Source: Longimicrobiales bacterium
GTDB lineage: Bacteria; Gemmatimonadota; Gemmatimonadetes; Longimicrobiales; RSA9
Assembly (NCBI GenBank): GCA_035461765.1
Contig: DATHUY010000077.1
Location: 62,001 to 126,000 of the forward strand
Length of the DNA stretch: 64,000 bases
Direction of reading: 5' to 3'
A model generated the notes under the pieces. The model saw only the letters and a program-made list of their open reading frames with translations. It searched no databases and was not told the origin of the DNA. A program made the translations under genes and the position numbers. Below, in pieces: positions 57,374-64,000 of this stretch (its first letter is position 1; every line of letters begins with the position of its first letter).

Positions 57374-58759
57374 ATGTCAGACGTACTCGTCGTCGGCGGT
57401 GGTCTGGCCGGCTGCGAGGCGGCCTGGCAGCTCGCGGAGCGCGGCCATGCGGTCACGCTCCGTGAGATGCGGCCCGTCCGTTCCACGCCTGCGCACCAGA
57501 CGCAGGATCTTGCCGAGCTCGTCTGCACCAATTCGTTCAAGAGTGAGGATCTCGGCAATGCGCACGGCCTTCTCAAGGCGGAAATGCGCGATATGGGCTC
57601 CATCCTGCTCCAGGCGGCCGACGTGTCGCGCGTGCCTGCCGGACAGGCTCTGGCAGTCGACCGCGACATGTTCGCGCGCGCGATGACGGAGCGCATGGAG
57701 CGGCATCCGAACATCACGATCGAACGCGGCGAGACGACAGCACTGCCGGATGGTCCTGCCGTTATCGCCACCGGTCCGCTGACGTCTGCCGCCCTCGCCG
57801 ACAGTATCGCAGCGCTGCTGGGCGATGAGGGTCTCGCCTTCTACGATTCCATCGCGCCCATCATCAGCGACGACTCCATTGATACGAACGTCGCGTTCTT
57901 TGCATCGCGCTGGGACAAGGGCGGAGATGACGATTATCTCAACTGCCCCATGTCGCGCGAGGAGTACGAGTCGTTCATCCACGCGCTGCGTGCTGCCGAT
58001 GTGTATCCAGGCCATGACTGGGAGAACCTGCCCCACACACGGGCCGAGGCACCGGCGGCACAGCCGCAGGTTGCCGAAGACAATATCCCGTACTTCGAAG
58101 GATGTCTGCCGATCGAGGTGATGGCGGAGCGCGGTGCGGACACGCTGCGTTTCGGCCCGATGAAGCCGGTCGGCCTGCGTGATCCGCGCACGGGCAGACG
58201 ACCATGGGCAGTCGTCCAGCTCCGGCGCGAGGACCGGACGGGCCAGATGTGGAACATGGTCGGGTTCCAGACACGGCTCCGCACGGGTGAGCAGCGCCGC
58301 ATCTTCCGCATGATCCCGGGCCTCGAGCAGGCGGAGTTCCTCCGTACGGGGTCCATCCATCGCAACACGTATCTGAACTTTCCCGCACGACTGAATGCGT
58401 ACGGAGCAGCGCCCAAACGACCGGACATCATCTTCGCAGGCCAGCTGACCGGCGTCGAAGGGTACACCGAGTCTGCCGCCTCAGGAATCCTGGCCGGCAT
58501 CAACATGGATCGCATCCTGACATCGCAGGAGCCTGTGCTGCCGCCATCGACCACGATGCTCGGCGCGCTCCTGCAGTATCTGCGCACGGCCGAGCCCGGC
58601 CGCTTCCAGCCGATGAACTCCAACTTCGGCCTGCTCGACCCGCTCACCGACCACGTGCGTGACAAGTCGCTGCGCCGCCAGCGCATGGTACAGCGCGCGC
58701 GCGACGATTTCGCGATGTGGGTACAATCCACCGTCACGCCGTCCGCGAGTCCGGTGTGA
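57374..58759 (+). CDS. trmFO: Methylenetetrahydrofolate-tRNA-(uracil-5-)-methyltransferase TrmFO
   Basis: 461 aa. The FAD-binding motif VLVVGGGLAGCEAAWQLAER opens the protein, followed by REMRPVRSTPAHQT and LVCTNSFKSEDLGNAHGLLK, all hallmarks of TrmFO. It methylates U54 of the tRNA T-loop using methylenetetrahydrofolate and FADH2. GGAG precedes ATG 57374. The topA-trmFO-xerC order is conserved in many bacteria. It overlaps the xerC GTG start. Confidence 0.96.
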   Translation: MSDVLVVGGGLAGCEAAWQLAERGHAVTLREMRPVRSTPAHQTQDLAELVCTNSFKSEDLGNAHGLLKAEMRDMGSILLQAADVSRVPAGQALAVDRDMFARAMTERMERHPNITIERGETTALPDGPAVIATGPLTSAALADSIAALLGDEGLAFYDSIAPIISDDSIDTNVAFFASRWDKGGDDDYLNCPMSREEYESFIHALRAADVYPGHDWENLPHTRAEAPAAQPQVAEDNIPYFEGCLPIEVMAERGADTLRFGPMKPVGLRDPRTGRRPWAVVQLRREDRTGQMWNMVGFQTRLRTGEQRRIFRMIPGLEQAEFLRTGSIHRNTYLNFPARLNAYGAAPKRPDIIFAGQLTGVEGYTESAASGILAGINMDRILTSQEPVLPPSTTMLGALLQYLRTAEPGRFQPMNSNFGLLDPLTDHVRDKSLRRQRMVQRARDDFAMWVQSTVTPSASPV

Positions 58760-59688
58760 GCAGTCCACCGTCCGCCACGGCACACCTGCTCGAGTATCTG
58801 CGCGGTGTCGAGCACGGCCGCCAGCTCAGCCCCAACACCGTCGCCGCCTATCGCCGCGACCTCTACGAGCTCGCAGCGTTCCTCGACCGCTTCTACAATG
58901 GCGATGACTGGACCTGGGACGGCGTCGACCGCCTCGCGCTCCGTGCCTGGCTCGGGGAGCTCTCCCGGCGCGGCCTCGCCCGGCGCAGCATCACAAGGAA
59001 GATGTCAGCGGTGCGCAGCTTCTTCCGGCACCTCCACCGCGAAGACATCGTCGAAGCCAATCCCGCACGGGCCGTGCGCTCCCCGAAAATCGAGAAGACG
59101 CTGCCTTCCTGGCTCACGCGCCTGGAGGTGGACCGGATGTTCGATGTCGCTGAACACGGCTCCGCCGACAACACGTTCCGCGGTACGCGCGACCACGCCA
59201 TCGTCGAGCTCTTCTACGCCACCGGCATGCGCCTCTCCGAGCTCGCCAGCCTCGATCTGGCCAGTGTGGACCTCGTCAGCGAGCAGGCACGCGTCCTCGG
59301 CAAGGGCCGCAAGGAACGCATCGTCCCCATCGGCGCTCCCGCTGTCGCCGCACTCCGTCGCCACGAGCTGCGCCGCCGCGAGATCCTGAATCGCGTTCCC
59401 ACGGCAGATCGCAAGGCGCTCTTCCTCTCCGAGCGCGGCAAGCGGCTCTCTACCCGCCAGATCCAGAACATCGTGCGCGGGCTGCTCGACAAAGTCGCCG
59501 ATGACGCCGGCCTCTCCACCCACTCCCTCCGCCACTCCTTCGCCACCCACCTCCTCGACGCCGGCGCCGACCTCCTCGCCGTCAAGGAGCTGCTCGGCCA
59601 TGCGTCGCTTTCCACGACCCGGATCTACACCCACATCGCCAAGGAACGCCTCAAGAAGGTGTACGACCAGGCCCACCCGCGGGCCTGA
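58756..59688 (+). CDS. xerC: Tyrosine recombinase XerC
   Basis: 310 aa. An N-terminal SAM-like core-binding domain (about 10-95, LSPNTVAAYRRDLYELAAFL) is followed by the catalytic domain with Arg in TGMRLSEL, Lys in GKGRKERIVP, HSLRHSFATHLL (His-x-x-Arg), His in LLGHAS and the nucleophile Tyr in TTRIYTHI. XerC resolves chromosome dimers at dif with XerD. GTG 58756 overlaps the trmFO stop (GTGA) and gives a normal length. It sits in the conserved topA-trmFO-xerC block, so it is XerC and not a mobile-element integrase. Confidence 0.94.
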   Translation: MSSPPSATAHLLEYLRGVEHGRQLSPNTVAAYRRDLYELAAFLDRFYNGDDWTWDGVDRLALRAWLGELSRRGLARRSITRKMSAVRSFFRHLHREDIVEANPARAVRSPKIEKTLPSWLTRLEVDRMFDVAEHGSADNTFRGTRDHAIVELFYATGMRLSELASLDLASVDLVSEQARVLGKGRKERIVPIGAPAVAALRRHELRRREILNRVPTADRKALFLSERGKRLSTRQIQNIVRGLLDKVADDAGLSTHSLRHSFATHLLDAGADLLAVKELLGHASLSTTRIYTHIAKERLKKVYDQAHPRA

Positions 59689-59836: not shown

Positions 59837-59865
59837 TTGCGGAGTCGGAAGAGGGGCCCTATCCT
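59837..59865 (+). promoter_or_regulatory. Candidate promoter of the flavin redox operon
   Basis: TTGCGG (59837-59842), a 17-base spacer and TATCCT (59860-59865). Transcription would start near 59872, so the Fur-box-like palindrome at 59874-59890 would cover the start region, a position suited to repression. Confidence 0.45.
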
Positions 59866-59873
59866 TCACGCAA

Positions 59874-59890
59874 TTGAAACTCATTCTCAA
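59874..59890 (+). promoter_or_regulatory. Fur-box-like palindrome before apbE
   Basis: TTGAAACTCATTCTCAA is a 17-base imperfect palindrome in which 12 of 17 positions agree with its reverse complement. The core resembles classic Fur sites (GAxAATCATTNTC type) and is much more AT-rich than its surroundings. It lies 6 bases before ATG 59897 and just after the candidate promoter. This points to repression by Fe(II)-Fur, or by a related metalloregulator such as Zur or Mur. Confidence 0.5.
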
Positions 59891-59896
59891 CTGTGT

Positions 59897-61006
59897 ATGC
59901 ATTCGCTGCTTCCTGTTCTTGTCACTGCCGCCATTGCCGCTTCGGCTCTGACAGCCACCGTCTCGGCCGGTGTCCGTGCAACCGCGAGTCCTGATCTGAG
60001 GGTCAGCCAAAGCGCGCAGTGCCGCGGCGCCGAGTCCATTGAGCGCACGACGCTTCAGATGGGCACGCTGCTGCGGATACGGATATCCGACGTCGATCGT
60101 GGCTGTGGTACTGAGGCGATAGAGGCTGCCATTGCGGAAGTCGAACGACTGGAAGGCGTGTTGAGCTCCTGGGTCGCCGAGTCGGAGATCGGCCGGCTGA
60201 ATGCCGCGCAGCCGGGGGCGCAAGTGGAACTGACGGCGGAGTTGTATGACCTGCTCGCCGAGGCTGGAATCTGGGTGGAAGAGACGGGCCGTGCGTTCGA
60301 CCCCGCGGTCGGCGCCTTGATCGATACGTGGGAGCTGCGGGGACAGGGTCGCGTGCCCTCTGCCGCTGATCTGGCGCGGGCGCGCGCGGCGTCAGGCTGG
60401 TCGAGGGTGACGCTCGAAGAAGGGAACCGCGTAACCCGCGGTCCGTCGGGCTGGTGGTTGGATACGGGAGGGTTCGGGAAGGGTGCCGCGTTGCGCGCGG
60501 CGGCGAGAGTGCTTGCCTCCCGCGGGGTGGTGTTCGGTGTGCTCGACTTCGGCGGTCAGCTGCTGGTTCTCGGCGAAGCTGAGGCGGGTGTCGCGCATCC
60601 CTCGAAGCGCGATCGCGAGGTCGTACGATTGAAGGTGGCCGGCAGCTCGGTGGCCACGACCTCTTCGTCGGAACGCTTCGTCAGCGTGAAAGGGCGGCGA
60701 CTGGGTCATGTGCTGGATCCCCGCCGCGGCGAGCCCGTGCCGGCCTGGGGCAGCGTAACGGTTGTGATGCAGGATGCGCTTTCGGCGGATGCGTTGTCTA
60801 CGGCGCTGTTCGTGATGGGCGCGGATGCGGCATTGGAGTGGGCCGCGCAGCGTCAGGACGTCGGCGTGCTCGTTCTCCGTCTCGACGGTGGCAGCGTGTC
60901 AGCCGGCTGTAACGCGAGTATGGCGACGCTCATCAGCAGTGTATCTGCGGAGGTCGGCCATGCCCGGTGTGAGTTCACCATGATAAATCCTGAACAGGGG
61001 AATTGA
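59897..61006 (+). CDS. apbE: FAD:protein FMN transferase (ApbE)
   Basis: 369 aa. A signal peptide (MHSLLPVLVTAAIAASALTA) precedes the ApbE domain. Family motifs are present: LDTGGFGKGAALRAAARVL (usual form LDLGGIAKG), GVLDFGGQLLVLG and the metal-binding ALSADALSTALFVMG. ApbE transfers FMN from FAD onto a Thr or Ser of target proteins in the periplasm; the obvious target is the FMN-binding protein two genes downstream. ATG 59897 was chosen because the signal peptide starts there; no clear ribosome site is visible. It opens a four-gene operon placed between xerC and hslV. Confidence 0.92.
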   Translation: MHSLLPVLVTAAIAASALTATVSAGVRATASPDLRVSQSAQCRGAESIERTTLQMGTLLRIRISDVDRGCGTEAIEAAIAEVERLEGVLSSWVAESEIGRLNAAQPGAQVELTAELYDLLAEAGIWVEETGRAFDPAVGALIDTWELRGQGRVPSAADLARARAASGWSRVTLEEGNRVTRGPSGWWLDTGGFGKGAALRAAARVLASRGVVFGVLDFGGQLLVLGEAEAGVAHPSKRDREVVRLKVAGSSVATTSSSERFVSVKGRRLGHVLDPRRGEPVPAWGSVTVVMQDALSADALSTALFVMGADAALEWAAQRQDVGVLVLRLDGGSVSAGCNASMATLISSVSAEVGHARCEFTMINPEQGN

Positions 61007-61009
61007 CAT

Positions 61010-62335
61010 ATGGGGACCATGGCTGGACGCTGGGTCGCAGCTGCTGCGACGATTGCGCTCCTTCTGACGGTTTCGCCCGCGTTGCACGGGCAGCAGGACA
61101 CGACGGAACTGGCTCGGATCCGCACCCAGATCGATGCGCTGACGCGGGAGCTGGAGGCGTTGCGCCTCGGGCAGGATGTGCTGCCGCAGGCGGACAGCTC
61201 GGCACACGGACTCGGGCCGGCTGCCGCGAAAGTGTATCGCGTGCGGCACGGCGTATCACTCGGTGGGTACGGTGAGGTGCTGTACGAGAACTTCGCTGCC
61301 GAACGCGAGAATGGGGAAGCCTCGAACCTGCGTGACCAGATCGACGCACTGCGTGCGATCATCTATGTCGGCTATCGCTTTACGGACAACCTGCTTTTCA
61401 ACTCCGAAATCGAATTCGAGCACGCGTCCACCGACCAGGCAGGCTCGGTCTCCGTCGAGTTCGCTTATCTCGACTATATCCCATCGCCGTATCTCGGCGT
61501 GCGCGGCGGTATGGTGCTCGTGCCGATGGGATTCATCAACGAGCTGCATGAGCCACCCATCTTTCTCGGAACGACGCGCCCGCTCACGGAGAACTCGATC
61601 ATACCGACCACCTGGCGAGAGAACGGCTTCGGCGTGTTCGGCGATTTCGGCGACTTCGCGTATCGCGCCTATGTCGTGAATGGCCTGGATGCGATCGGCG
61701 GCGGGCCGTCGCGTGCGGGCGGCTTCTCGGCGGGCGGGCTACGCGGGGGGCGTCAGAAAGGCTCGCGTGCTCTGATCGAGGATCCCGCAATCGTGGGACG
61801 TCTCGATTTCGAGCCTGCCGGCATGCTGCCGGGCCTCCTGCTCGGGGCCTCGGCGTACCACGGCAATTCGGGCCAGAGCGGGATGACGCCGGCGGGTGTC
61901 GAAGTCGACGCGCCGACGACTATCCTGGAGGGGCACGCACAGTACCGGGCCTACGGACTGGACCTGCGCGCACTCGCCGCCCGTGCCACGGTGGGGGATG
62001 CTGCGCTGATCAACGAAGCACGCACGCTCACGGGCACGTCATCGGTGGGCGAGGAGCTGGTCGGCTGGTACGCGCAGGGTGGATACGACGTCCTGCGGCT
62101 CGTACGCTCCATGCAGGAGCTTACGCCTTACGTACGCTATGAGAAACTGAACACACAACACGTGGTGCCGGAGGGCTTCACGGCCTCACGGGCCACAGAT
62201 CGCAGCGTCCTGGCCGTCGGCGCACAGTGGAAGCCGATCACGAATGTGGTGGTAAAGGGTGATTATCAGATCCATTCCAACGAGGCATCCACGGGCGTGA
62301 ACCAGTTCAACATCGTACTCGGATACCTGTTCTGA
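61010..62335 (+). CDS. Outer-membrane beta-barrel (porin-like) protein
   Basis: 441 aa. A signal peptide ends near SPALHGQ, followed by a short coiled coil (TELARIRTQIDALTRELEAL). The rest has alternating amphipathic strands (YGEVLYENF, IIYVGYRFTDNLLFNSEIEF, YAYR-type turns) and ends with the C-terminal phrase FNIVLGYLF, whose final Phe is the classic barrel assembly signal. The layout is like phosphate-selective porin O/P-type proteins. It starts 3 bases after apbE and ends 2 bases before the FMN-binding gene. A role in letting iron or an electron acceptor reach the periplasm is inferred from context only. Confidence 0.82.
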   Translation: MGTMAGRWVAAAATIALLLTVSPALHGQQDTTELARIRTQIDALTRELEALRLGQDVLPQADSSAHGLGPAAAKVYRVRHGVSLGGYGEVLYENFAAERENGEASNLRDQIDALRAIIYVGYRFTDNLLFNSEIEFEHASTDQAGSVSVEFAYLDYIPSPYLGVRGGMVLVPMGFINELHEPPIFLGTTRPLTENSIIPTTWRENGFGVFGDFGDFAYRAYVVNGLDAIGGGPSRAGGFSAGGLRGGRQKGSRALIEDPAIVGRLDFEPAGMLPGLLLGASAYHGNSGQSGMTPAGVEVDAPTTILEGHAQYRAYGLDLRALAARATVGDAALINEARTLTGTSSVGEELVGWYAQGGYDVLRLVRSMQELTPYVRYEKLNTQHVVPEGFTASRATDRSVLAVGAQWKPITNVVVKGDYQIHSNEASTGVNQFNIVLGYLF

Positions 62336-62337
62336 TC

Positions 62338-62895
62338 ATGCAACGTAATCGGCCGCTGATCCTGGTTCTGTCGCTGGCGCTGATCGCGCCGGCAGCGCTG
62401 CCTGCTGCCGTCGCCGGTCAGGCCCGCCTCACGCAGGTTGAGGCACTCCGGCTCGCGTTCCCGCCGCCGCTCGAAGTCGAGCGGCGGACGGCTTACATGA
62501 ACGAGACGCAGCTGAACCGCGCGACGGAGCTGGCCGGATCCCCGGTAACGCAGGGCGTCGTGAATTACTATGTTGCGCTCGAGCGCGGCCGCATTACAGG
62601 CGTCGCCTACTTCGACAGCCATCGGGTCCGCACGCACGGCGAGGTGTTGATGTTCGTTGTCGCGCCCGATGCAACGATACGCCGTGTGGAAGTCCTGCAG
62701 TTTGCTGAGCCGCCGGATTACGAGCCACCGGGGCGCTGGCTCGGCCTCTTCCGCGGGAAGCGACTGACCGACGATCTATCCATCAAGCGCGCGATCCCCA
62801 ACATGAGCGGCGCGACGCTGACCGCGCACGCGGTCACGGCAGCGGCACGCCGCGTCCTGGCCCTTCATGCCGTTATTCGACCTGTCGCTGGCTGA
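62338..62895 (+). CDS. Periplasmic FMN-binding-domain protein (flavinylation target)
   Basis: 185 aa. A signal peptide (LILVLSLALIAPAALPAAVAG) is followed by an FMN-binding domain. The flavinylation motif is NMSGATLTAHAV, with SGAT at 157-160; Thr160 is the predicted site where ApbE attaches FMN by a phosphoester bond. The upstream part (YYVALERGRITGVAYFDSHR) fits the family fold. Similar domains occur in NqrC, RnfG and small periplasmic flavoproteins. Its operon with apbE and a membrane cytochrome makes it the likely electron shuttle. The stop shares a base with the next start codon. Confidence 0.88.
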   Translation: MQRNRPLILVLSLALIAPAALPAAVAGQARLTQVEALRLAFPPPLEVERRTAYMNETQLNRATELAGSPVTQGVVNYYVALERGRITGVAYFDSHRVRTHGEVLMFVVAPDATIRRVEVLQFAEPPDYEPPGRWLGLFRGKRLTDDLSIKRAIPNMSGATLTAHAVTAAARRVLALHAVIRPVAG

Positions 62896-63476
62896 TGTCG
62901 AGCTGGGAGAAGCACCTGATGTGGTGGTCCACGGCGGCCGTCGCCCTGACCGGGTTCGTTTACGCCTGGATGAAGTACCTGTTGCAGCCCGCGGATGAGT
63001 GGGCCATCGTGAACCACCCCCTGCAGCCTGTCATTCTGAAGCTGCATATTCTTGTGGCCCCGGTGCTGGTCTTCGCGATCGGCCTCATCGCCTCTCGCCA
63101 TATCCTGGCACATCTCCGCACGCGCACCCGCACCGGCCGCCGGTCAGGAACCAGTGCCGCGCTCATCGTCGTGCCCATGATCCTCTCCGGGTATCTTATC
63201 CAGGCGATCACGCATAACGGCTTCCTCACAGCGCTCGGATACCTGCACCTGGCGGCGGGAACCGTATACGCCGCCGCCGCCGTTGCGCATGCCGTCGCCG
63301 CCCGACGACAGCGGCGCGCCCGTGCGGCGGGCTCTAATGACCCTGCCGCCCCCGGTTTCCATGGTCCTGCCGCCGCCGGCTTCGATCGCCCTGCCACCGC
63401 CGATCCGCTCCAGGGCGCATCGCAGCCCCTGCTGACAGCAACCCGCCCTTCGAGGTCGCGCCGGATCCGCTCCTGA
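62895..63476 (+). CDS. Four-helix cytochrome b-like membrane protein
   Basis: 193 aa. Four membrane helices (about 9-30, 45-70, 88-106 and 113-136) carry His residues in suitable places for b-type haem: H51 in [10 protein letters not shown]69 and H73, H118 in LGYLHLAAG and H132 in VAHAVAARR. The plan resembles small cytochrome b561/DUF4405-type proteins that pass quinol electrons to the periplasm. A disordered tail of about 50 residues with a degenerate PAAxGF repeat (about 149-172) follows. It overlaps the FMN-binding gene by one base and is the natural electron donor for it (inference). Confidence 0.75.
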
Positions 63477-63537: not shown

Positions 63538-64000
63538 GTGCACCCAAATGACGGGAAGATGCGCGCGACGACGATCGTCGCGGTGCGGCATAATGGACGG
63601 GTCGCGCTGGGCGGAGATGGGCAGGTAACGCTCGGTGATACGGTGATGAAGGCGTCGGCCATGAAGGTCCGGAAGCTGAAGGACGGCGCGGTACTGGCCG
63701 GCTTCGCGGGCTCGGTCGCGGACGCATTCACGCTGTTCGAGAAGTTCGAGGAGAAGCTGGAGCGGTATCCGGGCAACCTGTCGAAGGCGGTGGTCGAGCT
63801 GGCGAAGGAATGGCGGACGGACCGGTTCCTGAGACGCCTCGAGGCACTGCTGGCGGTCGCGGATCGAAACCACCTGTTCGTGATCAGCGGCGATGGCAAC
63901 GTAATCGAGCCGGATGACCAGATCGCGGCGATTGGAAGCGGCGGCGGGTTTGCGCTGGCAGCGGCGCGTGCGCTGAAGGGAAATACAGCGCTCACGGCGC
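63538..64000 (+). CDS. hslV: ATP-dependent protease subunit HslV (partial, runs off the window)
   Basis: 154 residues are visible. GTG 63538 is chosen because GAGGAGGAGGG precedes it by a few bases. The product begins with a short propeptide (HPNDGKMRA) before [20 protein letters not shown]; the first Thr of TTIV (residue 11) is the catalytic N-terminal nucleophile exposed after processing. [30 protein letters not shown] and [17 protein letters not shown] match HslV closely. It forms the proteolytic chamber capped by HslU, whose gene should follow outside the window. Confidence 0.95.

Follow-up and report, generated by a model that had tools for sequence, protein, structure and literature searches.

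We analysed a stretch of 64,000 nucleotides from a Longimicrobiales bacterium of the phylum Gemmatimonadota (GenBank assembly GCA_035461765.1, contig DATHUY010000077.1, positions 62,001 to 126,000 of the forward strand), hereafter called the window. An operon of four genes, all on the + strand, lies near its right end. The first gene, apbE (59897..61006), encodes a flavin adenine dinucleotide (FAD):protein flavin mononucleotide (FMN) transferase with a signal peptide. It is followed after 3 bases by the gene for an outer-membrane porin-type barrel (61010..62335) with 16 predicted strands and an N-terminal coiled coil, and after a further 2 bases by that for a periplasmic FMN-binding protein with an SGAT motif (62338..62895). 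The last gene (62895..63476) overlaps the FMN gene by 1 base and encodes a four-helix membrane protein of 193 amino acids, likely a di-haem cytochrome b. These coordinates confirm the tight packing (gaps of 3, 2 and -1 bases) reported in an earlier note on this DNA. Signal peptides were read directly in the sequence at the start of ApbE, the barrel and the FMN-binding protein. As argued below, the operon probably encodes a Fur-repressed, flavinylation-based periplasmic ferric reductase for iron acquisition, feeding Fe(II) uptake.

The earlier note had begun the region at 59837, which is an alternative upstream start for apbE. The ATG at 59897 appears preferable, because it gives a clean signal peptide, keeps a palindrome described below within the non-coding leader and fits the homologues. 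When the operon was scanned for sigma-70 promoters and terminators, nothing above chance was found on the + strand.

Conservation of the gene set

The barrel alignment was used to scan 84,980 species genomes, which yielded 365 candidate relatives; the best 80 were kept. These came from Gemmatimonadota, Acidobacteriota, Planctomycetota, Elusimicrobiota, Nitrospirota and Bacteroidota, and further from Ignavibacteriota, KSB1, Bdellovibrionota, Schekmanbacteria and Methylococcales. In a search of the order and phylum, strong relatives of the FMN-binding protein were found in roughly 1/7 to 1/15 of the genomes, scattered over families. The genes occurred together throughout these loci, except at two decayed loci and one with an assembly gap.

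For the counts we used 89 non-redundant loci with a barrel, some of them cut by contig ends. The FMN-binding protein was present in 88, the cytochrome in 66, an alternative four-helix protein in its place in 18, and ApbE in 72. All four genes were found in 57 of the 89 loci and in two orders only, namely ApbE-barrel-FMN-cytochrome (42) and barrel-FMN-cytochrome-ApbE (15), so that the barrel-FMN-cytochrome sequence was constant. Co-occurrence of the set in relatives, proposed in the earlier note as a check, was thus observed with the order kept, and this conservation across phyla led us to reject chance adjacency of the four genes. The set is also present in cultured Ideonella dechloratans, where it is annotated as hypothetical protein, FMN-binding protein, FAD:protein FMN transferase and hypothetical protein.

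A quick tree of the barrels clustered by phylum, imperfectly. One operon from a bin labelled Gammaproteobacteria (L067) grouped among Gemmatimonadota and is likely misbinned or transferred. Operon remnants were seen at L055 (7313-8022) and L056 (6652-7868), where the cytochrome gene and a fragment of the FMN gene stand without the barrel.

Predicted Fur operator

The palindrome TGAAACTCATTCTCA (59875..59889, + strand) lies 7 bases before the apbE ATG and agrees with the 7-1-7 Fur box at 11 of 14 positions. Counterparts of the form TTGAGAATGRTTCTCAA precede the first gene in nearly all relatives. We scored 7-1-7 boxes up to 350 bases upstream of the first gene and used windows from the same loci as controls. 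Boxes agreeing at 10 or more of the 14 positions were found at 29 of the 32 Gemmatimonadota-type operons against 3.7% of control windows, and those agreeing at 11 or more at 19 of the 32 against 0.2%. The corresponding values for other phyla at the 10/14 threshold were 17/46 and 5.7%. A 9-1-9 palindrome score that made no use of the consensus did not discriminate in Gemmatimonadota.

The genome containing the window (4.68 Mb) was then searched for TGARAATNATTYTCA. With at most one mismatch, the pattern occurred in three places: at feoAB, at a TonB-dependent receptor gene and at the operon. The reversed pattern gave no sites in the same genome, even at two mismatches. Two Fur-family genes are encoded there. 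The operon is thus a predicted member of the Fur regulon, by a predicted box in its promoter region that is common to iron genes of the genome. The site that the earlier note had called Fur-box-like occurs far above chance across relatives, and its palindrome is retained in them. The TonB-dependent receptor with the strong Fur-type box (L064:1290-3749, - strand) has a carboxypeptidase-regulatory-like domain.

Directly upstream of the set, loci from other phyla carry a gene of the Fur family in 10 cases and feoB in 5; Pfam confirmed one member per group, and the others were assigned by sequence clustering. These data also bear on uptake of another metal (Mn, Zn or Cu) under a relative of Fur such as Mur or Zur, in which case the FMN protein would reduce Cu(II) or work on metal complexes. 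The boxes of Fur-family regulators are alike, multicopper oxidase genes lie near the Methylocystis copy, and the membrane protein shows a weak similarity to CopD (E 0.0012, below the cut-off). We nevertheless consider this explanation improbable, since the same operator stands at feoAB in the same genome and FeoB is a neighbour in several phyla.

ApbE and the FMN-binding protein

The first and third proteins matched PF02424 (E 1.3e-59) and PF04205 (E 1.3e-6), respectively, in agreement with their earlier assignment as ApbE and an FMN-binding protein with SGAT. In ApbE, residues M55, G196, G220, H271, G278 and D298 were conserved in 64-65 of 65 sequences. SGAT occupies positions 157-160 of the FMN-binding protein; G158 was found in 87, A159 in 86 and T160 in 82 of 87 sequences, and E124 in all 87. 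Judging from this motif, T160 is likely the site of covalent FMN. The operon thus places an exported ApbE beside a putative substrate with an SGA(T/S) motif, one of the marks of flavinylation-based extracytosolic electron transfer systems.

The genome encodes a second apbE, which adjoins an Rnf gene set with RnfG, RnfD and others (L001). This makes it likely that the operon's ApbE serves the operon's own FMN protein specifically, and we rejected the possibility of one ApbE shared only with Rnf. In two genomes of different families (L045:5155-7377 and L052:5148-7367), ApbE and the barrel are fused in one open frame without an internal signal peptide, a hint that both act at the same place. An apparent fusion of the FMN protein with an ATP-binding cassette transporter in L043 (789 aa) was rejected as an assembly gap, seen as a run of X.

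The four-helix membrane protein

Modelling with AlphaFold, using alignments of the related loci, gave a four-helix bundle (predicted local distance difference test score, pLDDT, 80.6). Histidines 41, 51, 69, 118 and 132 were invariant in 64 of 64 homologues. H51 and H69 lie in helix 2 of the model, and H118 and H132 in helix 4. This is how the ligands of two haems, one above the other in a membrane, are usually placed. Accordingly arranged, H51/H118 on the periplasmic side and H69/H132 on the cytoplasmic side are the likely, putative haem pairs of the model, with H41 in a periplasmic loop. From positively charged segments near residues 74-84 and beyond residue 136, both termini are predicted to be cytoplasmic. 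The earlier description of this protein as cytochrome-b-like fits these results, in that four helices are modelled and the invariant histidines could bind two haems.

The best Foldseek match was E. coli hydrogenase-1 cytochrome b, with a probability of 0.99. Against PF01292 (prokaryotic cytochrome b561) the protein scored 15.6 bits, short of the curated cut-off of 30.1. DUF4405 gave no match at E 0.1 in any of 19 family members (the window protein and 18 homologues), and the PepSY-class domains PF03929 and PF16357 matched none of the 19 cytochrome homologues. A DUF4405 or PepSY identity was rejected on the basis of this Pfam scan. The scan also found no NapH-, MsrQ-, DsbD- or NQR/RNF-like membrane domains in the four window proteins and the 19 cytochrome homologues.

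The predicted haem protein is relevant to a second explanation, in which the flavoprotein spares iron as a general periplasmic electron carrier: it would replace iron carriers and feed a reductase encoded elsewhere, e.g. for repair or peroxide reduction, with Fur control serving iron economy. Fur control by itself fits this proposal, the use of flavins in place of cytochromes in iron-poor settings is discussed in PMC8238504, and the Ideonella set adjoins a cytochrome c peroxidase gene. However, the set invests haem in its own predicted cytochrome with five invariant histidines, an outer-membrane barrel needless for repair is always present (88/89 pairs), and feoB is a recurrent neighbour. We regard iron sparing as unlikely.

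The alternative four-helix protein, which follows the FMN protein at L057-L061, L109, L112, L116-L118, L123, L133, L135-L138, L140 and L142, has a conserved THxH...TH motif and the sequence GWLVRF. It matched no Pfam family above cut-off and showed no clear homology with the cytochrome (hhalign probability 15%). At L037:8132-9205, the cytochrome frame continues into a domain resembling DsrE (PF02635), which may be a distinct exported DsrE-like protein reached by read-through.

The outer-membrane barrel

The AlphaFold model of the barrel, built in the same manner, had 16 strands and an N-terminal coiled coil (pLDDT 83.5), which bears out its earlier assignment as an outer-membrane barrel. The top Foldseek matches were the general porins OmpU, Omp-Pst2 and OmpC, together with OprP (E down to 1e-13). 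Neither the barrel nor the four-helix protein of the window matched a Pfam family above cut-off, and nothing useful was found when profiles of the barrel and the cytochrome were compared with sequences of solved structures.

The barrel carries a ladder of glutamates, E133, E135 and E137, plus E150 and H180 in the long loop. E133, E135 and E137 are alternate residues on one face of one strand; together with E150 they were invariant in all 86 barrels, remote relatives included. The alternating neighbours F130, I134 and F136 are hydrophobic, which suggests that the glutamates face the lumen. Such a ladder suggests the passage of cationic iron or weak iron chelates.

A barrel beside a periplasmic redox protein also resembles the porin-cytochrome conduits of dissimilatory or extracellular metal reduction, in which respiratory electrons would pass out via the barrel onto insoluble Fe(III) or Mn oxides; a barrel relative is moreover found on a plasmid of Candidatus Manganitrophus. 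On the other hand, the set encodes no multihaem cytochrome able to fill the barrel, iron respiration would call for the reverse of Fur-type repression by iron, and the Manganitrophus copy lacks flavoprotein neighbours. Metal respiration therefore seems very improbable to us.

The Manganitrophus barrel relative (L185:5902-7891) adjoins a Tn3-family transposase gene. Only distant barrel relatives were recovered in the plasmid search, which accordingly gave no indication that plasmids carry the intact set in the phylum. Other distant barrel relatives precede genes for imelysin and a di-haem oxidoreductase in Pseudoalteromonas (L186:4875-9111) and Parabacteroides (L184:4872-8851), and the Pseudoalteromonas locus has a 12/14 Fur box. 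The iron link of the barrel family may be wider than the four-gene set.

Insertion between xerC and hslV

The left neighbour of the operon is xerC (58717..59688, + strand) and the right neighbour is hslV (63538..64000, + strand), which extends beyond the window. We compared the hslV region of 29 other genomes of the order. In 26 of the 29, xerC lies upstream of hslV, and the spacing between the matched parts was at most 353 bases in 21 and below 1.3 kb in all. The operon stood between the two genes in none of the 29; in one of these genomes (G028) it is located elsewhere, on another contig. Since relatives keep xerC next to hslV, the operon was inserted between them later, in the lineage that contains the window, as the earlier note had supposed. 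No transposon or repeat traces of the insertion route were found, though no in-depth search was made.

Proposed function

We favour the ferric-reductase reading because it brings the barrel, the flavin site, the invariant histidines, the operator and the gene neighbours under one account. Under iron starvation, Fur would release the operator and the four proteins would be made. Fe(III) would enter the periplasm through the operon's own porin, whose conserved glutamate ladder is predicted to face the lumen. The four-helix protein, as a di-haem cytochrome b, would carry electrons from the quinol pool to the periplasmic face, and ApbE would attach FMN to Thr160 of the FMN-binding protein. The flavoprotein would then accept the electrons and reduce free or chelated Fe(III) in the periplasm, and FeoB or a transporter of that kind would take up the resulting Fe(II). 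Feo systems require Fe(II). The self-contained route envisaged in the earlier note is thus likely for the reduction itself; to bring the iron into the cytoplasm, a further transporter, for instance FeoB, is required.

Several observations weigh against this proposal. Some loci of other phyla have no recognisable Fur box, the methanotroph copies have neither feoB nor a clear Fur box, and in the genome of the window no iron transporter adjoins the operon. The match of the four-helix protein to hydrogenase-1 cytochrome b is moderate (E 0.16, template modelling score about 0.5), and the protein falls below the cut-off of every Pfam cytochrome family. Furthermore, a cation-type lumen alone does not indicate Fe(III).

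We also advance, tentatively and as a possibility rather than the expected outcome, that the dedicated glutamate-lined porin, a covalently flavinylated reductase in the periplasm and a minimal four-helix di-haem cytochrome form one Fur-controlled trans-envelope unit. This would be a widespread, previously undescribed route for Fe(III) in Gram-negative bacteria, independent of siderophores and TonB. The parts might even form a physical complex at the coiled coil of the barrel, since the ApbE-barrel fusions hint so.

The module is a concrete candidate for periplasmic Fe(II) production in phyla with few cultured members, Gemmatimonadota and Acidobacteriota among them, and its porin, putative flavin site, predicted operator and predicted electron carrier are named to residue level. 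Its presence in Ideonella dechloratans makes it testable.

Comparison with known systems

Published surveys of flavinylation describe NapH-, MsrQ-, PepSY-, DsbD- and NQR/RNF-like membrane partners (PMC8238504) and DUF4405 (PMC10979944), and tie flavinylation to iron assimilation via VIT1, P19/FTR1 and TonB receptors (PMC8238504, PMC10979944). PMC8238504 cites repression of PepSY-like flavinylation clusters by Fur in Shewanella and Caulobacter. Neither survey uses the word porin in its main text, and FeoB does not appear in that of PMC8238504. Our literature search, which covered open-licence papers, found no description of the four-gene set.

Like the operon with its predicted haem protein, the PepSY-like clusters (Meheust et al. 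2021, PMC8238504) combine ApbE, an FMN protein and a haem membrane protein with a link to iron assimilation. Unlike them, the operon has a four-helix membrane protein of 193 aa without a PepSY match, its own porin instead of a TonB receptor, and FeoB rather than VIT1 as the recurrent neighbour. The DUF4405 cytochromes and FezC (Huang et al. 2024, PMC10979944) are, like the predicted cytochrome here, small multi-histidine membrane proteins encoded beside apbE, with four histidines, but DUF4405 has six helices as against four. Hydrogenase cytochrome b/cytochrome b561 (HyaC; PF01292) shares the predicted four-helix haem core and the sub-threshold Pfam match; however, the operon has no hydrogenase, the identity is about 14% and the score is below the PF01292 cut-off.

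The FMN protein resembles RnfG/NqrC in its FMN_bind domain with a covalent FMN motif (weak rnfG match, E 0.007), whereas the operon lacks Rnf/Nqr partners and a separate Rnf set in the genome has its own ApbE. The barrel shares 16 strands and a long constriction-type loop with general and phosphate-selective porins (OmpC/OmpU; OprP; PF07396). PF07396 was matched by 4 of 23 members of the barrel family, the window barrel giving no match. OprP has an arginine ladder (title of 2o4v) where the operon barrel has a glutamate ladder, and, unlike these porins, the barrel is encoded in one operon with a flavoprotein. The operon lends a proposed function to a family of porins that carries the label hypothetical protein, and adds a membrane partner absent from the surveys (PMC8238504, PMC10979944). 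Taken together, these comparisons suggest that the operon is a new form of flavinylation-based extracytosolic electron transfer, which probably acts as an assimilatory ferric reductase.

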